From Sphaerisporangium perillae (GTDB lineage: Bacteria; Actinomycetota; Actinomycetes; Streptosporangiales; Streptosporangiaceae): a stretch of DNA of 64,000 nt. Positions 43,051-56,725 of this stretch are shown here, in pieces. A model generated the notes under the pieces. The model did no database searches and was not told where the DNA came from. It was given only the letters and a program-made list of their open reading frames with translations. The stretch is taken from the NCBI RefSeq assembly GCF_023276435.1, contig NZ_JALLPO010000003.1:186001-250000 (forward strand), written 5' to 3'. Both the position numbers and the translations under genes were made by a program. Each line of letters begins with the position of its first letter. The stretch's first letter is position 1.

Positions 43051-44220
43051 TCATGCCGCGGCCAGCCTTGCCGCGAGCTCCGCGGCGGCGTCCATGGTCG
43101 GGACGACGCGGACCAGCGGATGCCGGGCCGCGTCGAGGACGGCGAGGCCGGCCTCGGCGTTATTGCCGTCCAGCCGCACCACGATCGGGTGGCGCAGCCC
43201 TCGGTCGCCCAGCATCTCCAGCGCGGAGACGATGCCGTTCGCGACCGCGTCACACGCGGTGATGCCGCCGAAGACGTTCACCAGCACCGCCCGCACGTCC
43301 GGATCGGACAGGACGATCTCCAGCGCGTCGGCCATCACCTGGGCGGAGGCCCCTCCCCCGATGTCGAGGAAGTTGGCCGGACGCGCCCCGCCCGCGCTCT
43401 CGCCCGCGTACGCCACGACGTCGAGCGTCGACATGACCAGGCCCGCGCCGTTGCCGATCACCCCGACCTCGCCGTCGAGCTTGACGTAGTTGAGCCCTCT
43501 GCTCGCCGCCCTCGCCTCAAGGCCGGCGGATCCTCCCGCCGGGGCGTCGGCGAAGGCGTCGCGGTCGTGGCGGAAGGCGGCGTTGTCGTCGAGGGTGACC
43601 TTGCCGTCGAGGGCGAGCACCCGGCCGTCCTGGGTGCAGGCCAGCGGGTTGACCTCCACCAGAAGCGCGTCCTCCTCGGCCATGACGCGCCACAGGCGCA
43701 CCAGGACGTCGGCGACGGCCGCGTGGACCTCCGCGGGGAGGCCGGCGCGTGCGGCGAGCAGCCCGGCGGTCTCGGCGTCCACGCCGCGTGCCGGGTCCAC
43801 CGGCATCATGGCCAGCGCCTCCGGCCTGGTCGCGGCGACCTCCTCGATGTCCATCCCGCCCTCGCTCGACACCATGGCGAGGAACGTCTTGTTCGCCCGG
43901 TCGACGAGGTAGGCGGCGTAGTACTCCTCGAAGGCCACCGTGGCGCGCTCGACGAGCACGGTCTCGGCCGTGTGGCCCTTGATGTCCATGCCGAGCACCT
44001 TGGCGGCCTCGGTGTGCGCCGAGGCGGGGCCGGGCGCGGGGCGCACTCCGCCCGCCTTGCCCCGGCCGCCGGTCTTCACCTGGGCCTTGATGACGGTGGG
44101 CCCGGCCAGCTCCGTCGCCGCCGACCGGGCCTCCTCGGGCGTGGCTGCGACCCGGCCCGGCGGGACGGGGACGCCGTGCCGCGCGAAGAGCTGCTTCGCC
44201 TGGTACTCGTACAGGTCCAT
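43051..44220 (-). CDS. sucC: Succinate-CoA ligase subunit beta
   Basis: 389 residues. ATP-grasp domain from the start ([57 protein letters not shown]) and the C-terminal CoA-ligase domain ([60 protein letters not shown]). It pairs with sucD downstream. Its promoter gap (44221-44317), shared with a divergent permease, holds two copies of the GntR-type operator. ATG 44220. Confidence 0.88.
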
Positions 44221-44243
44221 CGCGTCTCCTTATGCGCTTCTTC

Positions 44244-44261
44244 CATACGGTATACCGTATG
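44244..44261. promoter_or_regulatory. GntR-type operator A (sucC side)
   Basis: CATACGGTATACCGTATG, the centre of a 26-bp perfect palindrome (44240-44265). It is the best match to the 18-bp motif found in six promoter gaps of the island, built of CATAC-N-GTAT units whose centres are 7 bp apart. Confidence 0.75.
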
Positions 44262-44295
44262 GAAGAACAGCCGTCCAGGCCTCGACAGGAAACTG

Positions 44296-44320
44296 CATTC
44301 GGTATATTCCATACTGTATG
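44296..44320 (+). promoter_or_regulatory. GntR-type operator B overlapping a leaderless start
   Basis: CATTCGGTATA (centre 44301) and CATACTGTATG (centre 44315) are 14 bp apart. The second overlaps the ATG (44318) of the permease, and TATATT (44303-44308) is a likely -10, so a repressor here would cover the promoter and start codon. Confidence 0.7.
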
Positions 44321-45619
44321 GAGAAACCGCGATTGGTCCGCGACTGGCGCGGACGCCCCTACCTCGTCGGCCCCGACGCACGCGATCTCACCGGGCGGCC
44401 GAGGAACTGGATGTTCTGGCTGCCATGGGCGGCGATGGTCGCCATCGCCCCCCTGCAGTACGGGTACGCCGCCGCCACGCCGGCCCTGATCACCCTCCGC
44501 GGCGGCTCGGCACTCGCGGCCTTGCTGCCGCTGGCCGCCTGGATCGTCTGCCAGGCCGTCACCGCCGTCCCCGCCATCCATCTGGTGCGGCGCGGGCGGC
44601 TCAGCCCGCGCGGGGCGCTGTGGGCCGGCGCCGCGCTGAGCGGCGCGGCGCTGCTCGCGGTCGCCGCGGCCGGCGGCCCCCCGGCCGTCCTGATCGGGTA
44701 CGCGCTGCTCGGAGGGGCCGGAGGCGGCCTGGTGTACGGCGTCTGCACCGAGACCGTCGCGCGGTGGTATCCCGAGCGGCCGGCGACGCGGGTCGGCTTC
44801 GTGACCGGCGCCTACGCCTACGGCGCCGCGCCGCTCGCGCTCGTCGCCGGGCTGGACCCCCATAGCCTCCAGCCGGCGTTCGCCGTCTCGGCCGTCATCG
44901 CGCTGGCGGCCGTAGGAGTGGCGGCGCACTTCGTCCGGCTTCCCCCGCCGCACTGGTGGCCCTCGGAGGTGGACCCCCGCCGCCACGCCCTCGACCGGCT
45001 GATCCTGCGCAGGACGCCTCCGGCCGTGCGGCAGTTCTCCATGGGCCAGGCGCTTCGGACCGGCGCGCTGTCCCGCCTGGCGGCGATCCTGGCCTGCGCC
45101 GGAGCGGTGTCGCTCTTCGACGTCGTGGCGCTCGCCACAGCGGGGAAGGCCGCACCCTGGATCGCGCTCACCCTGCTGATCACGCTCAACGGGGCCGGGC
45201 GGGCCTGCGCGATGCTGGTCTCCGAGCGGGTCGGCCGCAGGCGCGTGCTCGGCGCGGTGCTGGCGCTGCTCGGCGCCGGCCAGCTCGTGCTGGCGGCCGG
45301 CCTGGCGGCGCGGTCGGCGCCGCTGGTGATCCTCGGGGCCGTGCTCGCCGGCGCGGGAGGCGGGGCGTTCTACCCGCTCATCGCCGGCCTGGTGCGCGAG
45401 TTCTTCGGCGAGGAGCGCACGGCGGAGATCCACGGCGTGGTCTACAGCGCCAAGGCGGTGGCGGGCGTGCTCGGCATCGGCCTGGCGGCCCTGCCGGCGA
45501 TCTCCGCGAGCCCCGCGGCGGCCTTCGTCCTCATGGCCGCGGTCGCCCTGCTCTCCGCCGCGGCGAGCCTCGGCCTGCGCGTGCCGGGGCGTCCGGCCAC
45601 GCTCCCGACCCAGGTGTGA
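44318..45619 (+). CDS. OFA-family (oxalate/formate antiporter-like) MFS permease 1
   Basis: 433 residues, 12 helices. The pre-helix-1 segment RGRPYLVGPDARDLTGRPRN matches the second permease in this window (46781-48166), as do YGVCTETVARWYPERPATRV and FFGEERTAEIHGVVYSAKAV. OFA permeases exchange divalent oxalate for monovalent formate. The ATG at 44318 has no ribosome site and lies 9 bp after a TATATT element, so translation is probably leaderless. Divergent from sucC. Confidence 0.75.
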   Translation: MEKPRLVRDWRGRPYLVGPDARDLTGRPRNWMFWLPWAAMVAIAPLQYGYAAATPALITLRGGSALAALLPLAAWIVCQAVTAVPAIHLVRRGRLSPRGALWAGAALSGAALLAVAAAGGPPAVLIGYALLGGAGGGLVYGVCTETVARWYPERPATRVGFVTGAYAYGAAPLALVAGLDPHSLQPAFAVSAVIALAAVGVAAHFVRLPPPHWWPSEVDPRRHALDRLILRRTPPAVRQFSMGQALRTGALSRLAAILACAGAVSLFDVVALATAGKAAPWIALTLLITLNGAGRACAMLVSERVGRRRVLGAVLALLGAGQLVLAAGLAARSAPLVILGAVLAGAGGGAFYPLIAGLVREFFGEERTAEIHGVVYSAKAVAGVLGIGLAALPAISASPAAAFVLMAAVALLSAAASLGLRVPGRPATLPTQV

Positions 45620-45646
45620 TCGAGTTCACCCAGGCCGGTACAGCGT

Positions 45647-45664
45647 CAGACTGTATGCTGTAGG
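45647..45664 (+). promoter_or_regulatory. GntR-type operator C (upstream of gntR)
   Basis: CAGACTGTATGCTGTAGG follows the 18-bp consensus with four changes, 73 bp ahead of the regulator gene. It fits autoregulation. TTGACG (45669-45674 region) just after it may be a -35. Confidence 0.55.
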
Positions 45665-45737
45665 CAGTTGACGAAAAACTTTTCAGCGGGCCCGTGACAC
45701 TGCGGGCCCTGTCACATCCCTTTCTGGAGTTGAGGAA

Positions 45738-46484
45738 ATGTCCCGGCCCGATCTGGCGAGCACCACAGCCGCACCCAAGATCGCGCGTCCCGTCCCGCTA
45801 CGCGAAAGCGTCTTCGAGGCGCTGCTCGAGCAGATCATCAGCGGGCACCTCCGCCCCGGCCAGCATCTCGCCGAGAGCGAACTCGCCGAGATGCTCGGGG
45901 TCTCCCGCCAGCCGATCAGAGAGGCGCTCCAGCTCCTCAGCGGCGAGGGCTGGGTCGACCTGCATCCCGGCCACGGCGCGTTCGTGCACGCCCCGACCGC
46001 CGAGGAGGCCGACCAGCTCCTCGCCGTACGGGCGCTCCTCGAGACCGAGGCCGCCCGTCTGGCGGCCCTCAACCGCACCGACGAGGGCCTGGCCCGGCTG
46101 CGCGCGCTCTGCTCGCGCGGCATGGCCGCCATGGAGGCCGACGACGTCGACGGCGCGGTCACGGCCAACTCCCAGCTGCACGCCACGGTCATGGAGCTGT
46201 CCGGCAACGCCGTCCTCGGCGACCTCGCCGCACAGGTCTCCCGCAGGGTCCGGTGGTACCACACGCCGGTGGCCCGCCAGCGCGGCCGGGCCTCCTGGGA
46301 GGAGCACACCGCGCTGATCGACGCGATCGCCGCCGGCGACGCCGGCCTGGCCGGCGAGATCATGAAGAACCACACCGAGCAGACCCGCCATCTGTACCTG
46401 AGCCAGCTCGGCGAGGAGGAGCCGGTCGAGCCGATCCCCAGCAAGCGCAGGAAGCGGCGGGCGCCCGCCTCGTTCGGAAGTTGA
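45738..46484 (+). CDS. GntR-family regulator, FCD (FadR/VanR) subfamily
   Basis: 248 residues. The winged HTH is at about 20-85 (LRESVFEALLEQIISGHLRP, ESELAEMLGVSRQPIREALQ, EGWVDLHPGHGAFV). The all-helical FCD effector domain lies at 90-225, with metal/ligand residues in LLETEAARLAA, NSQLHATVMELSGN (Asn/His) and WEEHTALIDAIAAGD. The C-terminal tail is basic (SKRRKRRAPAS). FCD regulators sense organic acids and bind short TAC/GTA dyads, so this is the natural candidate to bind the six CATAC-N-GTAT operators of the island. Likely ligands are oxalate, glyoxylate or an acyl-CoA. Confidence 0.88.
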   Translation: MSRPDLASTTAAPKIARPVPLRESVFEALLEQIISGHLRPGQHLAESELAEMLGVSRQPIREALQLLSGEGWVDLHPGHGAFVHAPTAEEADQLLAVRALLETEAARLAALNRTDEGLARLRALCSRGMAAMEADDVDGAVTANSQLHATVMELSGNAVLGDLAAQVSRRVRWYHTPVARQRGRASWEEHTALIDAIAAGDAGLAGEIMKNHTEQTRHLYLSQLGEEEPVEPIPSKRRKRRAPASFGS

Positions 46485-46570
46485 CGCAGATGTCATCCAC
46501 AGCTCGCTCCGGCGAAACATTCCGGAAGGAGATTAACCACGAGGGCGAAATCGCTTGTCTCCACGGAACA

Positions 46571-46635
46571 CGTGTGGCGACGCGCCCGCCGCCGAGGCCG
46601 GGGACGCCTCGGGACGGCGAACGCGTCGCCACACG
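46571..46635. terminator. Nested inverted repeat between convergent gntR and permease 2
   Basis: CGTGTGGCGACGCG (46571-46584) and CGCGTCGCCACACG (46622-46635) are exact inverted copies; inside them CCGAGGC pairs with GCCTCGG. The structure lies 87 bases past gntR and could form a two-storey hairpin ending both transcripts. The following 46681-46770 also holds short direct repeats (GGACCCGTCACCC; GAGCGAGGGCGGGGC). Confidence 0.55.
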
Positions 46636-46780
46636 CCCGTACTGTTCTCACCTACCGGTGCTGACGCGACCTTCACCTGAGGACCCGTCACCCACCTGGG
46701 GACCCGTCACCCCCATCCGTCCGGCCGCTGACGTGCCGAGCGAGGGCGGGGCGAGCGAGGGCGGGGCGACGTCCGAGAGG

Positions 46781-48166
46781 TCAGCCAGAGGCCTGCTCGG
46801 ACGCGGGTGCCAGAGTCGCACCGGCCGGCACGGCGGCCGGCTCGGAGCGGCCTGACCGCCCGGGCTGGCGCAGCGCCAGCGAGAGCAGGCCTGCCGCGAG
46901 GCTGGTCGTGCCCGCGATGATGAACGCCCCGCCGTACCCCCACGAGCCGATCACGACCGCGCCCATCCCCGACCCGAGCAGGCCGCTGACCAGCTTGGAG
47001 GAGTAGACCAGGCCGTAGTTCGTCGCGTTGTTGTTCTCCCCGAAGAAGTCCGCGGTCATGGCCGCGAACAGCGGGAAGATCGCTCCGCCGCCGAACCCTG
47101 AGATCATGGACGCCAGCAGGAAGAGCGGCATGTTGTGGATCGACCCCGACCACAGCACGGCGTACTGCGCCAGACCAAGGACCACGCACACGATCGTGAG
47201 CGTCTGCCGCCGGCCGACCAGGTCGGAGATCCAGCCGATCACGCCGCGGCCGGTGCCGTTCACTATCGCCTTCAGGCTCATCGCGAGGGCGACGATGCCC
47301 CCGGCGAACCCCATCTCCTTTCCGAACGGCACCTGGAAGGCGATGCCGAAGATGTTCACGCCCGCCGTGCAGAGCAGGCACACCCACATCAGGGGCAGCA
47401 TGCCGGTCTTGACGGCCTCCAGCGGCGTGTACTGCCGCACCGCGGGCGGGTTCTTGCGCAGGGCGCGCGTGTCGACCTGCCCTTTCAGCGGGTCGACGTG
47501 GCCCGGCCACCAGTTCTTCGGCGGGTCCTTGAGGAACAGCCCGGCGATGAACACGACGGCCAGCACGTACACGCCCACGAGATCCAGCACCGACTGGTAG
47601 TTCTCGGGATGCATGTACGAGGTGAATATGAAGACGAAGGGCACGGCGCCGTAGGCGAAACCGCCGTTGACGAAGCCGGTCTTGCCGCCGCGCCGCTCTG
47701 GATACCACTTGGCGACCATGTTGACGCAGGTGGCGTAGACCAGGCCGGCGCCCCCACCGCCGAACAGGCCGAAGCCGAGGTAGGCCCAGAAGATGTTCGG
47801 GGCGTGGCTGAGCGCCAGGAAGCCGAGGAAGGCTCCCACCGCTCCGAGCATCATGGCCGCCCGCGCCGAGAGCTTGCCGCTCTCCCGCAGGTAGCCGGCC
47901 GGGAAGGCCACCGCAGCCTGGAAGAACACCCAGACGCTGAGCAGCCAGAAGATGTTGGTCGACGACCATCCGTGTGCTTCGTGCAGCGTCTCCTCCGCCG
48001 AGCCGAAGGCGTACTCCGAGACGCTGATGCCCATCATGCCGATCCACGGCAGGAGCACCATCAGCCAGCGTGGCCGGCCCATGATGTCACGCGGGCTCTC
48101 GCCCATCCGATAGATGCGGCCATTACTGTCGGTGATCTCCCGAAAACCTGGTGTTACAGTGGTCAT
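46781..48166 (-). CDS. OFA-family (oxalate/formate antiporter-like) MFS permease 2
   Basis: 461 residues, 12 helices. The entry GRIYRMGESPRDIMGRPRWL, WLLSVWVFFQAAVAFPAGYL, YATCVNMVAKWYPERRGGKT, the loop MWVCLLCTAGVNIFGIAFQV and ADFFGENNNATNYGLVYSSK are typical of the oxalate/formate antiporter family. It is a paralogue of permease 1 but more conserved. No operator copy was found upstream, so its control may differ. ATG 48166. Confidence 0.82.
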   Translation of the reverse strand: MTTVTPGFREITDSNGRIYRMGESPRDIMGRPRWLMVLLPWIGMMGISVSEYAFGSAEETLHEAHGWSSTNIFWLLSVWVFFQAAVAFPAGYLRESGKLSARAAMMLGAVGAFLGFLALSHAPNIFWAYLGFGLFGGGGAGLVYATCVNMVAKWYPERRGGKTGFVNGGFAYGAVPFVFIFTSYMHPENYQSVLDLVGVYVLAVVFIAGLFLKDPPKNWWPGHVDPLKGQVDTRALRKNPPAVRQYTPLEAVKTGMLPLMWVCLLCTAGVNIFGIAFQVPFGKEMGFAGGIVALAMSLKAIVNGTGRGVIGWISDLVGRRQTLTIVCVVLGLAQYAVLWSGSIHNMPLFLLASMISGFGGGAIFPLFAAMTADFFGENNNATNYGLVYSSKLVSGLLGSGMGAVVIGSWGYGGAFIIAGTTSLAAGLLSLALRQPGRSGRSEPAAVPAGATLAPASEQASG

Positions 48167-48254
48167 GAGAATCGCTTTCTTCGGCGCTGACCAGTGCTCC
48201 TCTGTTCCCCCGTCGTCGTTCTCGGCCGGCGCGGCGTACCGCGCGCGGCATCGC

Positions 48255-48272
48255 TCCCCGGCCTTGTGGCCG
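48255..48272 (-). terminator. Hairpin downstream of the acyl-CoA synthetase operon
   Basis: CCCGGCC-TTGT-GGCCGGG, a perfect 7-bp stem between the end of the synthetase gene and the start of permease 2. Confidence 0.45.
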
Positions 48273-48375
48273 GGTCGTGCTCAGGTGCGTGCCGGCATGC
48301 GGCCTCCTCTCCCGCCCCGCTGGGCGGAGCGGTCCGGACACGTTCCATCAGGGGCCGTCACGGCAGGGCGGGCCG

Positions 48376-48404
48376 GGCGGTGGACCGCCAGATGATCCAC
48401 CGCC
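48376..48404 (-). terminator. Hairpin just past the acyl-CoA synthetase stop
   Basis: GGCGGTGGA (48376-48384) and TCCACCGCC (48396-48404) pair perfectly, 26 bases after the stop of the leftward gene. It probably ends the TPP enzyme-frc-synthetase operon. Confidence 0.55.
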
Positions 48405-48429
48405 TGGAGCACGCCTCCGCCGCGCCCGC

Positions 48430-50562
48430 TCAGCCGAGCAGGCCGGCCGCCCTGGCCCAGCGGTATTTCGCCCCGAGGACCGCCACGGGCTTCTCGGTGG
48501 TGTAGGGGTAGGCGACGATGCCGTGGTCGAAGAGGTAGTCGCAGGCCTCCTCGACCTCGGTGTCACCGGCCAGCGACGCGACCACCGGCTTGACGTGGCC
48601 CTTCTCCCGCTCCTCGGCCACCACTTGGGCGATGAGCTCGGCGAAGACCATGGGCGGGGTCACGATGGTGTGCCAGTAGCCGAGGACCAGCGCGTGGATG
48701 CGCGGGTCGGAGAGGCCGAGCCGCACGGTGTTCGCGTACGTGCTCGGCGGCTCGCCGCCGGTGATGTCGATCGGGTTGCCCGCGGCCCCGAAAGGCGGGA
48801 TGTAGGCGCGGAACGCCTCGTCCAGGTCCGGCGGGATGTCCATGAGGGAAAGCCCGTTGTCGACGCAGGCGTCGGAGAGCAGGACGCCCGAGCCGCCCGC
48901 CCCGGTGATGATGACGACGTTCTCCCCCTGCGGGGTGGGCAGGAGCGGGAGCGAGCGGGCGTACTCCAGCATGTCGTTCAGCCCGGGAGCCCGGACGACC
49001 CCGGCCTGGCGCAGGATGTCGTCGTACACCTTGTCGTCGCCGGCCAGCGCGCCGGTGTGCGAGCCCGCCGCCCGCGCGCCCATGGCGGTGCGCCCGGCCT
49101 TGAGCACGATCACCGGCTTATGGCGCGAGACCCGCCTCGCCGCCTCGACGAAGCCCCGCCCGTCCTTGAGGTCCTCCATGTGCATGGCCACGCAGCGGGT
49201 GTTGTCGTCCTGCTCGAAGAAGGTCAGCAGGTCGTCCTCGTCGATGTCGGCCTTGTTGCCGACGCCGACGATCGCCGACACGCCCATCTTGGTGGTGCGG
49301 CTGAAGCCCAGGATGGCCATGCCGATGCCGCCGCTCTGCGAGGTGAGCGCCACGCTCCCCTTCACGTCGTAGGGGGTGCAGAACGTGGCGCAGAGGTTCT
49401 CCGGCGTGTAGTAGTAGCCGTAGATGTTGGGGCCGAGCAGCCGCACGCCGTGCCGGCGGGCGATCTCGACGATCTCGGCCTGGCCCTCGTGGTTGCCCGT
49501 CTCCCCGAAGCCGGAAGGGATCATGATGGCGCCGCCGACACCCTTGGCTCCGGCCTCTTCCAGCGCGCCGGCCACGAACTTCGCCGGGATCGCGAACACC
49601 GCGACGTCCACCTCGTAGGGCACGTCGGCGACGCTCGGGTAGGCGGGCAGCCCCATGATCTCGGAGGCCTTCGGGTTGATCGGGAAGATCTGACCCTGGT
49701 AGCCGCCGTCGATGAGGTTGCGCATGACCGAGTTGCCGATCTTGCCGTTCTCCGCCGAGGCGCCGATCACGGCGACGGACCTGGGCTTGAAGATGCGGTT
49801 CATCGAGGCGAGGATCTCCTCGCGAGGTAAGCGCTCGACGGGCCGCACCGGCTCGGGGTCGAGCAGGATGCGCACGTCCGCCGCGGTCGCCCCGGACGCG
49901 CTCGCGAACACGGGGTTGAGGTCGACCTCGGAGATCTCGGGGAAGTCGGCGACGAGGGCGCCGACTCGTTCGATCATGGTGGCGAGCGCCTCCCGGTCGG
50001 CTCCCTCGCCGCCGCGCACGCCGCGCAGCACCTCCGCCGCCTTGATGTCGTCGAGCATGCCGAGCGCCTCGCCGTGGGTGAGCGGCGCCAGGCGGAACGT
50101 CACGTCCTTCAGCACCTCCACCAGCACGCCGCCGAGGCCGAAGGCGACCACCTTGCCGAACGTGGGGTCGGTGACCGCTCCGATGATCACCTCGTGCCCG
50201 CCGTCGAGCATCCGCTGCACCTGGACGCCGTCGATGGCCGCGTCGGGATCGTAGGCGCGGGCGGCCGCCGTGATGCGGTCGTACGCGGCGCGCACCTCCT
50301 CGGGAGTGCGCAGCCCGACGATGACGCCGCCGGCCTCCGTCTTGTGCAGGATGTCCGGCGAGACGATCTTCATGACCACCGGCAGCCCGATGTCGGCGGC
50401 GATCCGCGCGGCCTCCTCCGGTGAGGTGGCGAGGCCCTCGCCGGGTGTGGTGATGCCGTACGCCTCGCAGAGCCTCCTGCCCTCGGGCGCGGTCAGCGCC
50501 GTGCGGCCCTCGGCGCGGGCCTTCTCCAGGACCTCGCGGACCGTCTCTTCGCTTCCCGCCAT
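48430..50562 (-). CDS. ADP-forming acyl-CoA synthetase (acetate-CoA ligase family)
   Basis: 710 residues with ATP-grasp first (about 10-230: EGRRLCEAYGITTPGEGLAT, PVVMKIVSPDILHKTEAGGV, EVIIGAVTDPTFGKVVAFGL, EVDLNPVFA), then the CoA-binding and flavodoxin-like succinyl-CoA-synthetase domains (RSVAVIGASAENGKIGNSVM, VALTSQSGGIGMAILGF, MGARAAGSHTGALAGDDKVY with the phospho-His). NDP-forming ligases make acyl-CoA from a carboxylate, or run in reverse to gain ATP. The partner operon suggests oxalate, formate or glycolate as substrate. The start overlaps the frc stop (TGATG). Confidence 0.85.
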   Translation of the reverse strand: MAGSEETVREVLEKARAEGRTALTAPEGRRLCEAYGITTPGEGLATSPEEAARIAADIGLPVVMKIVSPDILHKTEAGGVIVGLRTPEEVRAAYDRITAAARAYDPDAAIDGVQVQRMLDGGHEVIIGAVTDPTFGKVVAFGLGGVLVEVLKDVTFRLAPLTHGEALGMLDDIKAAEVLRGVRGGEGADREALATMIERVGALVADFPEISEVDLNPVFASASGATAADVRILLDPEPVRPVERLPREEILASMNRIFKPRSVAVIGASAENGKIGNSVMRNLIDGGYQGQIFPINPKASEIMGLPAYPSVADVPYEVDVAVFAIPAKFVAGALEEAGAKGVGGAIMIPSGFGETGNHEGQAEIVEIARRHGVRLLGPNIYGYYYTPENLCATFCTPYDVKGSVALTSQSGGIGMAILGFSRTTKMGVSAIVGVGNKADIDEDDLLTFFEQDDNTRCVAMHMEDLKDGRGFVEAARRVSRHKPVIVLKAGRTAMGARAAGSHTGALAGDDKVYDDILRQAGVVRAPGLNDMLEYARSLPLLPTPQGENVVIITGAGGSGVLLSDACVDNGLSLMDIPPDLDEAFRAYIPPFGAAGNPIDITGGEPPSTYANTVRLGLSDPRIHALVLGYWHTIVTPPMVFAELIAQVVAEEREKGHVKPVVASLAGDTEVEEACDYLFDHGIVAYPYTTEKPVAVLGAKYRWARAAGLLG

Positions 50563-51788
50563 CAGATCACTCCGTTCCGTCGCAGCTCCGCGACCGTGTC
50601 GGCCGAGAGGCCGATACCCGCGTAGATCTCCTCGTTGTGCTCGCCCAGCAGGGGCGGGGTGGTCACCGTGACCGGGGAGTCGGAGAGCTGGATGGGGCTG
50701 CCGACGGTCGCGAAGGTGCCTCGCTCGGGATGCTCTACCTCGACGATCACGCCCTGCTCCCTCAGCGTCTCGTCCTCGATGAGCTCCTTGGTCGACAGGA
50801 TCGGCCCGCACGGGATGTCCTCGGCGTTGAGCGCGTCGAGCACCGTCCACTTGTCGTGCAGGCGGGTCCACTCCTCGATGAGCTGGAACATCTTGTCCAG
50901 CTTCGGCAGCCGGGCCTCCGGCGTCGCCCACTCGGGGTCGTCCGCCAGCTCGGGCCGGCCGATGATGCGGGCGATCGGCCGCCAGCCGGGTGGCTGGACG
51001 ATCACGTAGATGTAGTCGTTGGGGCCGCCGGGGGCGCACTTCACCGCCCAGCCGGGCTGCCCGCCTCCCGAGGCGTTGCCCGACCGGGGCACCTCGTCGC
51101 CGAAGGCCTTGTTCGGATACTCGGCCAGCGACCCCTGCGCGAGCCGCTGCTGGTCGCGCAGCTTGACCCGGCACAGATTCAGCACGGCGTGCTGCATGGC
51201 GACCTGGACCCGCTGCCCCCTGCCGGTGGTGCCGCGCTGGTACAGGGCGGCCAGGATGCCCGCGACCGTGTGGATGCCCGTGCCTGAGTCGCCGATCTGC
51301 GCTCCGGTCGCGAGCGGCGGGCCGTCCTCGAAGCCGGTGGTGCTCATGGAGCCGCCCATCGCCTGCGCGACGACCTCGTAGGCCTTGAACCCGGCGTAAC
51401 GCCCGGGCCCGAACCCCTTGATCGAGGCGTACACCAGGCGTGGGTTGATCTCCTGGAGGCGCTCCCAGGTGAAACCCATGCGGTCGACGGCGCCGGGGCC
51501 GAAGTTCTCCACCAGGACGTCGGCCTCGCGGACCAGCTCGGTGAAGATCTCCTTGCCGCGGTCGCTCTTCATGTTGAGAGTGATGCTCTTTTTGTTGCAG
51601 TTGAGCATCGTGAAGTAAAGGCTGTCCACGTCCGGGACGTCGCGTAGCTGCTTGCGGGTGATGTCGCCGGAGGGCGACTCCAGCTTGACGACGTCGGCGC
51701 CGAGCCAGCCGAGGATCTGGGTGCAGGACGGTCCGGACTGCACGTGGGTCATGTCGAGGACGCGGACACCTTCGAGTGCTCTGCTCAT
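50562..51788 (-). CDS. frc: Formyl-CoA:oxalate CoA-transferase
   Basis: 408 residues, class III CoA transferase strongly resembling Oxalobacter Frc throughout: [20 protein letters not shown], the Asp nucleophile Asp167 in [51 protein letters not shown] and the glycine loop [13 protein letters not shown]. It moves CoA from formyl-CoA (or succinyl-CoA) to oxalate. It lies between the TPP enzyme (12 bp upstream) and the acyl-CoA synthetase (overlapping start). Confidence 0.93.
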
Positions 51789-51800
51789 CGCGGGGTTCCC

Positions 51801-53504
51801 CTACTTGTACATCGTCTGGTTCATGGTCCCGGGGGCGTACACGTCCGGGTCGATCCATACGTTGATCAGCGCGGGCTTGCCGGACTCGCGGGCCCGCTCC
51901 AGCGCCGGCCGGATGCCGGCCGGGTCGCGGACCTCCTCGCCGTGGCCGCCCAGCATCCGGGCGAACTCGTCGTACCGGACGTCGCCGAGGGTGTTGCCGA
52001 CCCTGCCCCTGGCCTCGCCGTACTTGGCGGCCTGGCCATAGCGGATCTGGTTCATGGAGGAGTTGTTGCCGATGATCCCGATGAAGGGCAGGTCGAAGCG
52101 GACCATGGTCTCGAAGTCCCAGCCGGTGAGGCTGAACGCGCCGTCGCCGAAGAGGCAGACCACGTCCTTGTCGCGCTGGGCGTGCTTGGCGGCCATCGCG
52201 AAGGCCACGCCGACGCCGAGCGTGCCGAGCGGCCCGGGATCCATCCAGTGGCCGGGCGACTTGGGCTGCACGACCTGGCCGGAGAAGGTGACGATGTCGC
52301 CGCCGTCGCCGATGTAGATGGTGTCCTCGGTGAGGAACTCGTTGATCTCGTGGACGAGCCGGTAGGGGTCGATGGGCCGGGCGTCCGACAGCTGCCGGGG
52401 CAGGCGCTTCTGGTACGCCTTGGTCTCGACCTCGCGCAGCTCCTCCATCCACCTCTTGCGCCGGGCGCTGCCGTTGTCCTCCCGGCCGGTCGCGGCGGCG
52501 GCCGCGGCGGAGAGCACCAGCCCGGCGTCGCCGACGATGCCGAGGTCGATGTCGCGGTTCTTGCCCACCGTGCGGTAGTCGAGGTCGATCTGCACCACGG
52601 TCGCCTCGGGCGAGAGCCGCTTGCCGTACCCCATGCGGAAGTCGAACGGCGTGCCGACGATGATGATCAGGTCGGCGTTGGAGAAGGCGTACCGGCGGGA
52701 GAGCTGGTAGTGGTGGGGGTCGCCGGGCGGCAGCGTGCCGCGCCCCGAGCCGTTCATGTACGCCGGCACGTTGAGCGCGCGGACGAAGTCGATGGCGTCG
52801 GCGGTGGCCCTGCACGTCCACACCTGGCTGCCCAGCAGGACGCACGGCTTCTCGGAGTGGGCGATGAGGTCGCCGAGGCGCTCGATGGCCGCGGGGTCGC
52901 CGGCCTGGCGGGTGGAGGCACGGTAGCGCCCGGCCTGCGGGATGCGCGCCTTGTCCAGCGGAATTGAGGCGTCCAGGACGTCACGCGGGATCTCCAGGAA
53001 CGACGGCCCGGGCGCGCCGTGGTAGCACTCGCGGAACGCCATGGACACCAGGTCGGCCACCCGTTCGGTGGAGGGCACGGTGGCCGCGAACTTGGTGATC
53101 GGCGTCATCATGTCGACGTGCGGCAGGTCTTGCAGTGAGCCCATCTTGTGCTGGCTCAGCGCCCCCTGGCCGCCGATGAGCAGCATGGGGCTCTCGGCCC
53201 TGAAGGCGTTGGCGACGCCGGTCACCGCGTCGGTGGTGCCCGGCCCGGCCGTCACGACCGCGCACCCCGGCTTGCCGGTGACCCGCGCGTAGCCGTCGGC
53301 CGCGTGCGCCGCCACCTGCTCGTGGCGTACGTCTATCACCTCGATGCCCTCGTCGACGCAGCCGTCGTAGATGTCGATGATGTGGCCGCCACAGAGCGTG
53401 AAGATCACATCGACGCCCTCCGCCTTCAGGGCCTTGGCCACGAGATGGCCGCCCGAGATGCGCTCGGGGGCGGGTTCGGCGGGCGGGGTCGCTGGTTCGG
53501 GCAT
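51801..53504 (-). CDS. ThDP enzyme of the oxalyl-CoA decarboxylase / 2-hydroxyacyl-CoA lyase group
   Basis: 567 residues. Three ThDP domains: the N-terminal Glu-containing segment VIDVRHEQVAAHAADGYARV, a central region with HKMGSLQDLPHVDMMTPITK, and the C-terminal ThDP motif FGDGAFSLTGWDFETMVRFD with GNNSSMNQIRYGQ. The C-terminus ends in APGTMNQTMYK. With frc directly downstream, oxalyl-CoA decarboxylase is the expected role (oxalyl-CoA to formyl-CoA plus CO2), but several segments look closer to bacterial 2-hydroxyacyl-CoA lyases than to Oxalobacter Oxc. ATG 53504 follows GAGAGGACGG. Two operator motifs lie in its promoter gap. Confidence 0.75.
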   Translation of the reverse strand: MPEPATPPAEPAPERISGGHLVAKALKAEGVDVIFTLCGGHIIDIYDGCVDEGIEVIDVRHEQVAAHAADGYARVTGKPGCAVVTAGPGTTDAVTGVANAFRAESPMLLIGGQGALSQHKMGSLQDLPHVDMMTPITKFAATVPSTERVADLVSMAFRECYHGAPGPSFLEIPRDVLDASIPLDKARIPQAGRYRASTRQAGDPAAIERLGDLIAHSEKPCVLLGSQVWTCRATADAIDFVRALNVPAYMNGSGRGTLPPGDPHHYQLSRRYAFSNADLIIIVGTPFDFRMGYGKRLSPEATVVQIDLDYRTVGKNRDIDLGIVGDAGLVLSAAAAAATGREDNGSARRKRWMEELREVETKAYQKRLPRQLSDARPIDPYRLVHEINEFLTEDTIYIGDGGDIVTFSGQVVQPKSPGHWMDPGPLGTLGVGVAFAMAAKHAQRDKDVVCLFGDGAFSLTGWDFETMVRFDLPFIGIIGNNSSMNQIRYGQAAKYGEARGRVGNTLGDVRYDEFARMLGGHGEEVRDPAGIRPALERARESGKPALINVWIDPDVYAPGTMNQTMYK

Positions 53505-53526
53505 CAGAGGCCGTCCTCTCAAAGTG

Positions 53527-53544
53527 CATACTGCATACCGTATG
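53527..53544. promoter_or_regulatory. GntR-type operator D (TPP enzyme promoter)
   Basis: CATACTGCATACCGTATG differs from operator A at two positions, 23 bp before the leftward ATG at 53504. Confidence 0.72.
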
Positions 53545-53644
53545 AAGCCAATCGTTAACCCGGTGGTCGCACCTTGTCCAGACCCTTTCGGTGACGGCCG
53601 CTCTCTTTTGGCCGGCGGACACGGATCCTTGACCCTCGGATTTC

Positions 53645-53662
53645 CATACTGTATACCGAATA
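53645..53662. promoter_or_regulatory. GntR-type operator E (PanE2-like promoter)
   Basis: CATACTGTATACCGAATA, 30 bp ahead of the rightward GTG at 53692. It shares the 187-bp divergent gap with operator D. Confidence 0.7.
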
Positions 53663-53691
53663 CAATCGTCGACGCGAGGACGGAGCTGTTC

Positions 53692-54681
53692 GTGAAGATC
53701 GCTGTTCTTGGCGCCGGCGCCATCGGTGCGTATGTGGGCGCCGCCCTGTGCAGGGCGGGCGTCGAGGTGCATCTCATCGCCCGCGGCGAGCACCTCGCCG
53801 CCATGCGCCGGTCCGGTGTGCGCGTGCTGAGCCCCCGGGGTGACTTCACCGGTCATCCCCACGCCACCGACGACCCCCATGAGGTCGGCCCGGTGGACCA
53901 TGTGTTCCTCGGCCTGAAGGCCAACGCCTACGCGGCCGCCGGGCCGATGATCCTGCCCCTGCTGCACGAGACGACCTCCATCGTGGCCGCCCAGAACGGC
54001 ATCCCCTGGTGGTACTTCCACCGGCTGCCCGGGCCCTACGAGGGCTACCGCATCCAGAGCGTCGACCCCGGCGGGAGCGTCACGGCCGCCCTGCCGCTGG
54101 AGCGCGCGATCGGATGCGTCGTGTACGCCGCCACCGAGATCGAGGCGCCCGGAGTCGTCCGCCACCTGGAGGGCACGCGCTTCTCGATCGGCGAGCCCGA
54201 CGGCTCGACGTCGGGCCGCTGCACGGCCTTCAGCGCGGCCATGATCGAGGGCGGCCTCAAATGCCCGGTCGAGCCCGACCTGCGGCACGACATCTGGGTC
54301 AAGCTCATGGGCAACATCGCGTTCAACCCCATCAGCGCGCTCGCCCGGGCGACGATGGCCGGCATCTGCCGCCACCGCCGCGCCCGCGAGCTCGTCGTCG
54401 CGATGATGCGCGAGACCGTCGATGTCGCCCAGCGGGTCGGCTGCGACCCCCGGATCTCCATCGAGCGCCGCATCGCCGGAGCCGAGCGGGCCGGCGAGCA
54501 CAAGACCTCCACCCTCCAGGATCTGGAGAAGGGCAAACCCCTTGAGCTGGACGTGCTCCTGGCGGCGGTGGTCGAGCTGGCCGACCTCACCGGCGCGCAG
54601 GTCCCCACGCTTCGGTCGATCCACGCCGTGACCGACCTGCTCGACGAGCAGGTGCGCCGCGGCCTTGTCCCTACGCTGTAG
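53692..54681 (+). CDS. PanE2-like ketopantoate-reductase-family enzyme, candidate oxalyl-CoA reductase
   Basis: 329 residues of the ApbA/PanE family: IAVLGAGAIGAYVGAALCRA (NADPH), the catalytic Lys in ELDLLWVKL-type segment HDIWVKLMGNIAFNPISALA, and AAQNGIPWWYFHRLPGPYEG. The QNGIPWWYF phrase and the C-terminal ERRIAGAERAGEHKTSTLQD are typical of the PanE2 branch. In Methylobacterium extorquens PanE2 reduces oxalyl-CoA to glyoxylate. Placement beside frc and the TPP enzyme, with gcl and garR in the island, makes the same reaction likely. GTG 53692. Confidence 0.72.
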   Translation: MKIAVLGAGAIGAYVGAALCRAGVEVHLIARGEHLAAMRRSGVRVLSPRGDFTGHPHATDDPHEVGPVDHVFLGLKANAYAAAGPMILPLLHETTSIVAAQNGIPWWYFHRLPGPYEGYRIQSVDPGGSVTAALPLERAIGCVVYAATEIEAPGVVRHLEGTRFSIGEPDGSTSGRCTAFSAAMIEGGLKCPVEPDLRHDIWVKLMGNIAFNPISALARATMAGICRHRRARELVVAMMRETVDVAQRVGCDPRISIERRIAGAERAGEHKTSTLQDLEKGKPLELDVLLAAVVELADLTGAQVPTLRSIHAVTDLLDEQVRRGLVPTL

Positions 54682-54686
54682 AACCA

Positions 54687-54711
54687 CATACGGTAAATCG
54701 CATACAGTATT
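54687..54711. promoter_or_regulatory. GntR-type operator F (fdh promoter)
   Basis: CATACGGTAAA (centre 54692) and CATACAGTATT (centre 54706), 14 bp apart as in operator B, lie 26 bp before the GTG of the formate dehydrogenase catalytic gene. Confidence 0.7.
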
Positions 54712-54736
54712 CCCCGCCCGCTCGGAGGACACGGAC

Positions 54737-56725
54737 GTGAAGAAGAAGCGAGCCGAGCACTACGACCGGCTGACCCATCCCCTCGTACGTGAGGACGGAG
54801 TCCTGCGGCGGGCCACCTGGGAGGAGGCACTCCAGCGCGCCGCCGAGGGTTTCCGCCGCAACATCGCCCGCCACGGCCCCGACGCGTTCGCCATGCTGTC
54901 GTGCGCCCGCTCGACCAACGAGATGAACTACGTGGCGCAGAAGTTCACCCGCGTCGTCGCCGGCACCAACAACGTCGACTCCTGCAACCGCACCTGCCAC
55001 GCGCCGAGCGTCGCCGGGCTGTCCGCCGCCTTCGGCAGCGGCGGCGGCACCTCCTCCTACCAGGAGATCGAGGACACCGACGTCATCATCATGTGGGGGT
55101 CCGCGGCGCGCAACGCCCACCCGATCTTCTTCCACCACGTGCTCAAAGGCATCCGCAAGGGCGCCCGCATGTTCGCCGTCGACCCCCGCAGGACCGGGAC
55201 GGCCCAATGGGCCGACCGATGGCTCGGGCTCAACGTCGGCACCGACATCCCGCTCGCCCACGCGGTCGCACGCGAGATCATCCACGCCGGTCTGCACAAC
55301 ACGGCCTTCATCGAGCGGGCCACCGAGGGGTTCGAGGAGTTCGCCGCCTCGGTGGAGCCGTGGACCCTCGCCGCCGCCGAGCAGGTTACCGGCGTGCCCG
55401 CGCACGCGATCCGGGAGCTCGCCCACACCTACGCCCGCGCCGACCGCGCCCAGCTCTGCTGGACGCTCGGCATCACCGAGCATCACAACGCCACCGACAA
55501 CGTGCGCGCGCTGATCAACCTCTCCCTGCTCACCGGGCACGTCGGCCGGTACGGCTCCGGCCTGTCGCCGCTGCGCGGGCAGAACAACGTCCAGGGCGGC
55601 GGCGACATGGGCGCCATCCCCAACCGGCTGCCCGGGTTCCAGGACATCCTCGATCCGGGGATCCGCGCCAGGTTCGAGCAAGAGTGGCAGGCCCCGATCC
55701 AGCCCGGCTACGGCCTGACGCTCACCGGCATGCTGGAGGCCATGGCCGAGGGCAAGGTCACCACCTGCTACCTCATCGGCGAGAACCCCGTGCAGTCCGA
55801 GGCCGACTCGCTGAGCTGCGTCAAGCGCCTGAGCATGCTCGACCACCTCGTCGTCCAGGACATCTTCCTCACCAAGACCGCCCAGATGGCCGACGTCGTA
55901 CTGCCGGCCGCCGCGGCCTGGTGCGAGAGCGAGGGCACCTTCACCAACAGCGAGCGCCGGGTGCAGCGCGTGCGCAAGGCCGTGTCACCGCCGGGCGAGG
56001 CCCGCGACGACATTTGGATCCTGTGCGAGCTGGCCCGCCGCCTCGGCCACGACTGGCACTACGAGAGCTCCGAGCAGGTGTGGGACGAGATCCGCAGGAT
56101 GTCGCCCGCGCACGCCGGCATGAGCTACCAGCGCCTGGCCGACCTGCAGGGCATCCAGTGGCCGTGCCCCTCGGAGGACTCCGTCGAGCCGCCCTTCCTT
56201 CACGGGCGGCTGTGGGAGACCGACCCGGCACGCAGGGGCGCTCCCGCGCCGTTCGCCGTCCTGCGGCACTCGCCCCCCGTGGACCTGCTCGACGAGGAGT
56301 ACCCCCTGCGTCTCACCACCGGCCGCACGCTCGACTCCTACAACACCGGCGTCCAGTCGTCCGGCTTCGCCTCCCCGCTGCGCGCCGGCGAGCGCGTCCA
56401 GCTCTCCCCCGAGGACGCCTCGCGGCTCGGCCTCACCCTCGGCGAGGAGGTCCGGATCAGCTCGCGGCGCGGGTCGGTCGTCGCCCCGGTCCACATCGAC
56501 CCGGGGCTGCGTCCCGGCCTGGTCTTCATGACCATGCACTTCCCCGACGAGGTCGACACCAACGCCCTGACCATCGAGGCCACCTGCCCCATCGCCGGCA
56601 CGGCCGAGTTCAAGGCCGCCGCCGTCCGCGTCGACAAGCTCACCGGCGACGGCGGGGCGGCCCTTTCCCATAGCGGCCAGGTCGCCGCCGGCGCAGGCGA
56701 GTTCCTCGCCGCGAAGGCCAGGTGA
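54737..56725 (+). CDS. Formate dehydrogenase catalytic part (molybdopterin domain only)
   Basis: 662 residues covering just the Mo-bisPGD catalytic and dinucleotide-binding domains of FdsA/FdhF-type enzymes. Active-site segment NNVDSCNRTCHAPSVAGL: Cys87 (TGC) replaces selenocysteine 140 of E. coli FdhF as Mo ligand, followed by His88. LRGQNNVQGGGDMGAIPNRL and IGENPVQSEADSLSCVKRL are conserved. The usual N-terminal [4Fe-4S] domain is absent; the protein begins at DRLTHPLVREDGVLRRATWE, exactly after the point where that domain would end. That missing part is encoded at 58831-59799. GTG 54737 follows GGAGGA. First gene of the fdh operon. Confidence 0.9.
   Translation: MKKKRAEHYDRLTHPLVREDGVLRRATWEEALQRAAEGFRRNIARHGPDAFAMLSCARSTNEMNYVAQKFTRVVAGTNNVDSCNRTCHAPSVAGLSAAFGSGGGTSSYQEIEDTDVIIMWGSAARNAHPIFFHHVLKGIRKGARMFAVDPRRTGTAQWADRWLGLNVGTDIPLAHAVAREIIHAGLHNTAFIERATEGFEEFAASVEPWTLAAAEQVTGVPAHAIRELAHTYARADRAQLCWTLGITEHHNATDNVRALINLSLLTGHVGRYGSGLSPLRGQNNVQGGGDMGAIPNRLPGFQDILDPGIRARFEQEWQAPIQPGYGLTLTGMLEAMAEGKVTTCYLIGENPVQSEADSLSCVKRLSMLDHLVVQDIFLTKTAQMADVVLPAAAAWCESEGTFTNSERRVQRVRKAVSPPGEARDDIWILCELARRLGHDWHYESSEQVWDEIRRMSPAHAGMSYQRLADLQGIQWPCPSEDSVEPPFLHGRLWETDPARRGAPAPFAVLRHSPPVDLLDEEYPLRLTTGRTLDSYNTGVQSSGFASPLRAGERVQLSPEDASRLGLTLGEEVRISSRRGSVVAPVHIDPGLRPGLVFMTMHFPDEVDTNALTIEATCPIAGTAEFKAAAVRVDKLTGDGGAALSHSGQVAAGAGEFLAAKAR

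Follow-up and report, generated by a model that had tools for sequence, protein, structure and literature searches.

A conserved heptad-spaced operator code and its candidate GntR repressor in an oxalate-catabolism island of Sphaerisporangium perillae

We describe an operator code in a 64,000-nucleotide stretch of the Sphaerisporangium perillae genome (RefSeq assembly GCF_023276435.1, contig NZ_JALLPO010000003.1, positions 186,001 to 250,000), referred to below as the window, which carries a group of genes termed the oxalate island because of its formyl-CoA transferase (Frc) and the gene context. The repeat of this code consists of a hexamer, GTMKAC (M = A/C, K = G/T), and one spacer base, with three to four units per operator; the code is real and conserved. 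An FCD-type GntR protein encoded among the arrays at 45738-46484 is probably an autoregulated repressor of the island that reads these heptad-spaced hexamers. The new elements are the 7-bp array, an operator that contains a start codon, and a CRP-like site in fixed phase with the array ahead of the regulator gene.

Operator arrays on a 7-bp register

An earlier sequence-only reading of the window listed six motif sequences, and all of them are present, at 44244, 44296, 45647, 53527, 53645 and 54687. They lie in four intergenic gaps rather than six, since 44244 and 44296 share one gap and 53527 and 53645 another; there are thus two sites between sucC and permease 1, one between permease 1 and gntR, two between the thiamine pyrophosphate (TPP) enzyme gene and the PanE-like gene, and one between the PanE-like gene and fdhA. 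The assignment of one operator to each promoter stands, with arrays preceding sucC, permease 1, gntR, the operon of the TPP enzyme and frc, the PanE-like gene and fdhA:

44243..44262, minus strand: sucC operon operator array, CCATAC-G-GTATAC-C-GTATGG
44295..44321, plus strand: permease 1 operator array, four heptad units, the last overlapping the ATG at 44318-44320
45646..45672, plus strand: gntR operator array, TCAGAC-T-GTATGC-T-GTAGGC-A-GTTGAC
53526..53545, minus strand: operator array of the TPP enzyme-frc-acyl-CoA synthetase run (from sequence, conserved letters and array score)
53644..53663, plus strand: PanE-like gene operator array (on the same three grounds)
54686..54712, plus strand: fdhA operator array, ACATAC-G-GTAAAT-C-GCATAC-A-GTATTC

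The sites at 44296 and 54687 had been described as pairs of CATAC-N-GTAT boxes 14 bp apart. Both sites exist, but the first box at 44296 reads CATTC, and each supposed pair is a four-unit array on the 7-bp register with a weak inner unit: GCATTC (44295), GTATAT (44302), CCATAC (44309) and GTATGG (44316, the last by sequence reading) in one, and ACATAC (54686), GTAAAT (54693), GCATAC (54700) and GTATTC (54707) in the other. Outer units of the arrays often carry one or two changes from GTMKAC, and a GTMKAC hexamer every 7 bp describes the unit better than an 18-bp matrix does.

The four gaps, 460 bp in all, contain eight hexamer pairs scoring at least 10/12, where shuffled sequences average 0.14 and none of 2000 shuffles reaches eight; 16 such pairs occur in the rest of the window and 20 in 80 kb taken from other parts of the genome. 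The register recurs at other loci. Across 135 upstream sequences of the six genes, each at most 150 bp long, with one mismatch allowed per hexamer and divergent gaps entered once per gene, hexamer pairs occur 150 times at 7 bp, 68 times at 14 bp and 26 times at 21 bp, against shuffle expectations of 3.4, 3.6 and 2.9, which bears out the 7-bp register first proposed. At these distances 111 control upstreams, belonging to seven further genes in those loci, contain 1, 2 and 1 pairs; the controls have a peak of their own at 12 bp (29 pairs).

Scoring whole arrays, as the best hexamer triple of at least 14/18 within 130 bp upstream, where in divergent gaps a neighbour's array can count for a gene, finds them at 18/20 sucC, 17/17 permease 1, 35/41 gntR, 20/22 TPP enzyme, 15/19 PanE-like and 13/15 fdhA upstreams, compared with 0/111 at the seven other genes and 0.2-1.4% in shuffles. 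Two islands of Pseudonocardia, a genus of another family, carry CATACGGTATGCAGTATG upstream of the TPP enzyme gene.

The motif is also rare. The exact 11-bp box CATACNGTATG occurs at two places in the 9.3-Mb genome, both in the island, and with one mismatch at 33 places, of which seven are in the island and the remainder is near the 23 of a reversed control; at one mismatch the genome scan therefore shows no frequent matches at unrelated promoters. Of 11 genomes of the genus, the five with the TPP enzyme all contain the 18-bp motif at no more than one mismatch, the six without the enzyme all lack the motif, and the control pattern never occurs; all of these matches lie in the island except two, at C47:45672 in this genome and C2:169898 in genome G001.

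Might the motif be chance or ordinary promoter sequence? Loose scans do fall at or near background: 80 matches with at most three mismatches in the window against 75.1 expected, 36 oriented matches of the 18-bp pattern at the same tolerance in the genome against 22 for the control, and pattern-to-control counts for a 19-bp pattern with at most two mismatches of 9/5 (this genome), 10/3, 11/3, 8/7 and 5/4 in five genomes of the genus. Moreover, −10 elements share the letters TATAC. Because the loose scans are uninformative, strict genome counts and the hexamer-array score were used in their place, and these, with the register, the gap shuffles and the presence-absence pattern in the genus, leave this explanation a negligible probability.

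Two sites elsewhere are noted in their own right. The sequence GGATACAGRATACGGTATG stands upstream of an OmpR-type response regulator gene at L136 9672-9690 (G000:C47) and L236 3899-3917 (G001:C2), and that gene is present in only 2 of the 11 genus genomes. A heptad-like CGTACAGCATACGGCATGACGTACG at C41:38147 (L138 9648-9672, G000:C41) is flanked by an ABC transporter gene and a TetR gene; it is perhaps a TetR operator.

The GntR regulator and its link to the arrays

The sequence-only reading placed an FCD-type GntR gene among the sites, and domain matches agree (PF00392, 74.4 bits, cut-off 27; PF07729, 96.9 bits, cut-off 24.3):

45738..46484, plus strand: FCD/GntR regulator (VanR-like), candidate binder of all arrays (from domains, alignment, structure model and fold search)

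A dedicated GntR regulon, as had been suggested, is the best-supported interpretation on three grounds: the conservation of the arrays at the same genes across genera, a gntR array that persists outside the island, and the co-occurrence of regulator and island. Among 341 genomes of the family the regulator (E ≤ 1e-50) is found in 147 and the TPP enzyme (E ≤ 1e-200) in 123, with both in 119, the regulator alone in 28 and the TPP enzyme alone in four (Fisher p 2e-58, uncorrected for kinship). The gntR array is kept at three loci where the fetched 20 kb show no other island gene (L060, L061, L067), at one with only fdhD alongside (L073) and at one with frc and the TPP enzyme only (L062); in Streptomyces rhizoryzae (L224) a 12/12 hexamer pair stands in the gntR promoter, with fdhD near. 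There is also a clean natural negative, genome G022, which has neither a close gntR nor an array ahead of its TPP enzyme gene. As the first gntR search scored only eight candidates per genome, apparently gntR-less genomes were searched again.

Several observations weigh against this interpretation. The 28 genomes above carry gntR without the TPP enzyme, and 6 of 41 gntR upstreams have no array (L082, L084, L087, L090, L093, L080). Genomes G110 and G217 have a TPP-enzyme array with no close gntR found, and G022 is the only clean natural negative among the genomes chosen for lacking gntR. Most fetched loci come from one GTDB family, so that the counts are not independent. Finally, the permease 2 gap has no array at any of seven loci, the window included, and the earlier assertion that every promoter gap of the island holds the motif was therefore overstated. 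As to the missing regulators, the G110 and G217 assemblies are fragmented, with the G217 contig stopping where gntR is expected, and in G074, one of the four TPP-enzyme-only genomes, the regulator lies in pieces over several contigs and the arrays are present.

The gntR copies at L082, L084, L087, L090 and L093 each come from a two-copy genome, show 59-61% identity and have no promoter array; these copies perhaps represent a paralogue with other targets.

That some other regulator binds the arrays is highly improbable. Such a reading could draw on the arrays of G110 and G217 and on the predicted status of binding by the GntR protein; the presence of an array at the gntR promoter both in and out of the island, the fit of the hexamer to the FadR-subfamily consensus (PMC4494728, from the part of that account available) and the strong co-occurrence all argue for the island GntR protein.

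The AlphaFold model of the regulator (mean predicted local distance difference test score, pLDDT, 88) has about 20 residues ahead of the first helix, and its closest folds are VanR-type FCD proteins (7u5q, PmiR 7xp1, Atu1419 6z74/6za3 and McbR). The VanR group is marked by a six-helix effector domain lacking the additional helix of the FadR group; DSSP of the model gives one long helix at 158-198. The regulator's best NCBIfam match, PhnR (TIGR03338), scores 111.2 bits, below the cut-off of 271.5, and the NanR model NF003011 scores 93.3, below 260. In an alignment of 42 sequences the recognition-helix residues S56 R57 Q58 P59 and R61 E62 A63 are invariant, as are N144, H148, H190 and H212 of the metal site (42/42). 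The protein thus has the three His and the Asp/Asn of metal-binding FCD proteins, with a His spacing of 42/22; the accessible account of HypR gives 44/22 for that protein and 40/22 for TM0439 (PMC6608401). A pathway ligand, probably a small carboxylate held by this metal site, would release the repressor. Confirmation of the effector could open the way to a biosensor for oxalate or glyoxylate.

A regulator of this kind, VanR-like FCD/GntR, is already known; the operator geometry is new. The available part of the study of Atu1419, a VanR-group FCD repressor of Agrobacterium fabrum, reports binding to a 10-bp palindrome, ATGTATACAT, with a GTATAC core, in which Arg45 reads the G of GT; binding is lost when this G is altered together with its partner (PMC7797058). 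The SRTPVREAL helix of Atu1419 aligns with the invariant S56 R57 Q58 P59 x R61 E62 A63 here, Gln58 standing where Atu1419 has Thr46. Atu1419 shares with our regulator the fold, the recognition-helix Arg, the three-His metal site and the GTATAC core and, according to the same text, represses a catabolic cluster, its own operon included, from sites overlapping the −10; it differs in that its sites are isolated 10-bp palindromes, of which two stand 190 bp apart, with a tetramer and looping, whereas here three to four hexamers recur every 7 bp (PMC7797058). The GTMKAC hexamer satisfies the FadR-subfamily operator rule, given in the source's accessible part as NyGTM-N0-1-KACNy (PMC4494728). From these two precedents one hexamer would be the core site of one dimer.

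An alternative keeps the same regulator and regulon and has one dimer read an ATAC-N-GTAT dyad, a palindrome of 13-18 bp, with the 7-bp register arising from interlocking dyads. The strongest site, 44244, is a perfect palindrome, and the distant gntR operators, such as those at L091 and L092, consist of two mutually complementary hexamers, GTAGAC-T-GTCTAC, as this alternative would expect. It is nevertheless unlikely, given the three-to-four-unit arrays, the pairs at 14 and 21 bp and asymmetric arrays such as that of gntR; in the portions of the sources available, the GT and AC of FadR-subfamily sites stand 2 or 3 nt apart, which fits the interior of the hexamer (PMC4494728), and Atu1419 binds its 10-bp palindrome with the GTATAC core (PMC7797058).

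The nearest tandem precedent found is NanR, the sialic acid repressor of E. coli, for which the accessible text describes three dimers bound cooperatively on (GGTATA)3 and a requirement for two or more closely spaced repeats (PMC8012715). It differs in its direct GGTATA repeats and 32-residue N-terminal extension, compared with GT/AC hexamers, a 7-bp register and about 20 residues here (PMC8012715). The GntR-family proteins NagQ and FarR also have direct-repeat motifs, the seven-letter TGGTATT in the case of NagQ; they belong to the HutC subfamily, with another effector domain, and were compared by listed motif only, so a 7-bp precedent is possible there (PMC4494728, in part). HypR of S. coelicolor is, in the available account, an actinobacterial six-helix FCD repressor with a three-His site and an operator over its own −10; it differs in its motif, CTNTGC(A/C)ATGTCAC, and its hydroxyproline genes, and that part of the account describes no 7-bp array (PMC6608401).

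We propose tentatively, as a possible rather than a probable arrangement, that one GntR dimer occupies each heptad and that three to four dimers stack cooperatively on 20-27 bp, more tightly than NanR does; that the permease 1 stack would cover a leaderless start codon and block polymerase and possibly the ribosome; and that the regulator level is governed by a CRP site at constant phase. The GGTATA repeats of NanR are more widely spaced than the 7-bp arrays. The latter offer a clean system for asking how closely GntR dimers pack on DNA.

We found no report of a GntR regulator of frc-type oxalate genes in the open-access literature, subscription journals being mostly outside the search. In the part of a Pandoraea proteome study available, GntR regulators appear merely as counts (PMC5987411), and GlcR, described in accessible text as a GntR repressor of glycolate oxidase in Paracoccus, is an analogue and not the system of the island regulator (PMC11323563). 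For soil actinobacteria that use oxalate, among them Sphaerisporangium, Nonomuraea, Planotetraspora and Pseudonocardia, the island offers a testable candidate regulator together with its operator code. Oxalate use is linked to the soil oxalate-carbonate cycle.

Promoters, the permease 1 start codon and a CRP-like site

Promoters were assigned from letters conserved across loci together with reading of the sequence. The comparison covered loci up to L076, with all 17 sucC loci anchored and three distant loci not entered; anchors were lost at L059, L071 and L076 (permease 1), L062 and L066 (TPP enzyme) and L073 (gntR), in most cases through tblastn starts displaced by a few residues. The putative promoters are:

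−10 TATACC 44249..44254, −35 TGGACG 44272-44277, minus strand: sucC, TGGACG-17-TATACC, −10 inside the array
−35 53629-53634, −10 53652-53657, plus strand: PanE-like gene, TTGACC-17-TATACC, −10 inside the array
−35 53575-53580, −10 53552-53557, minus strand: TPP enzyme, TGGACA-17-TAACGA, array directly downstream
44282..44310, plus strand: permease 1, TCGACA-17-TATTCC, array next; 42/51 loci fit the promoter pattern

The candidate fdhA promoter is weaker (TTGTCC-18-TACGGT) and overlaps the coding end of the PanE-like gene. With arrays that overlap or follow the proposed −10 elements, repression, autorepression included, is the likeliest mode of action. The GntR protein would recognise the tandem hexamers of the one operator at each promoter and, bound over or directly behind the −10 and at the permease 1 end on the start codon, would block initiation. 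Activation of the island genes by the GntR protein is very unlikely: FadR activates or represses by position and CitO is an activator, as the available HypR account relates (PMC6608401), but the arrays overlap or sit downstream of the putative −10 elements, a point weakest for fdhA, and the accessible texts have Atu1419 (PMC7797058) and HypR (PMC6608401) repressing from sites at the −10 or start.

The ATG of permease 1 is supplied by the last CATACNGTATG box of its operator (44310-44320), and the start codon as the end of this operator is new. Among 51 distinct permease 1 loci (at least 45% identity, at least 130 bp upstream, identical duplicates dropped) the box is present in 50, and in 49 the ATG is in frame with no stop before the homologous part. 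There is no space for a ribosome-binding site after the putative −10, so a leaderless message is likely, and the ATG-ending operator would provide a natural example of a leaderless start under repression.

A further element precedes the gntR array:

45615..45630, plus strand: CRP-like palindrome TGTGATCGAGTTCACC, overlapping the permease 1 stop codon, at fixed distance in 49/50 loci

Of 50 distinct loci, 49 have the pattern GTGW-N6-WCAC at a distance of 43-45 bp upstream of GTAGGC in the gntR array (permease 1 at least 40% and gntR at least 55% identical, adjacent, on one strand, identical duplicates dropped); in the fiftieth, L214, the palindrome is present and the array pattern is unmatched. 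A looser search finds a CRP-like match in 20 of 41 gntR upstreams, at least one of them (L094) stray; it gives none at L060, L061, L062, L067 and L073, loci in which gntR does not follow permease 1, and it gives matches at L077 and L081 without permease 1 nearby. In the loci of the conserved-letter comparison GTGA-N6-TCAC occurs in none of the other five gaps. Taking TATGCT/TATACT as the −10, the site is centred at about −42.5 to −44.5; a class II CRP site lies at −41.5, close to this. A Crp protein is encoded in the genome; its top solved relatives are Crp/Fnr-family 3i54 and 3d0s, with 4byy also high. A CRP-type regulator probably activates gntR.

Island genes and a distal transporter

Genes of the island include:

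43051..44220, minus strand: SucC-like ligase, first gene of the sucC-sucD-hyi-garR-gcl-aldehyde dehydrogenase (ALDH) run
44318..45619, plus strand: MFS permease 1, oxalate/formate antiport-like, all NCBIfam matches under cut-off
50562..51788, minus strand: Frc, 665 bits, equivalog cut-off 504
51801..53504, minus strand: TPP enzyme, related to oxalyl-CoA decarboxylase and 2-hydroxyacyl-CoA lyase (profiles, solved relatives)
53692..54681, plus strand: PanE/ApbA-type reductase (domain and profile matches)
54737..56725, plus strand: formate dehydrogenase alpha subunit (fdhA), 643.5 bits, cut-off 666

The TPP enzyme falls well short of the curated cut-off for a canonical oxalyl-CoA decarboxylase (TIGR03254, 241 versus 739.4), and its top solved relatives are 2-hydroxyacyl-CoA lyases and also oxalyl-CoA decarboxylases. 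Both permeases resemble oxalate/formate antiporters, under all cut-offs, and the glyoxylate carboligase scores 877 against a cut-off of 791 in one model and 706 against 711 in another.

In three genus genomes (contig C39 of this one, G002 and G009) an array stands about 10 bp or less from the ATG of a distal OFA/monocarboxylate-type MFS gene, as a wider regulon would predict. Arrays at OFA-type MFS genes are patchy across 30 loci, with any pair of at least 10/12 within −300 to +60 in 14 of them, not all near the start, and we claim the transporter, from its upstream sequence, as a predicted regulon member only in the three genus genomes. The gene of this genome is at L137 7966-9384 (G000:C39); a second copy at C110 is without a pair of at least 10/12.

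At L078 and L083 two fdhA-like genes stand in tandem, with panE and fdhBC on either side, the extra copy at L083 being in separate pieces.

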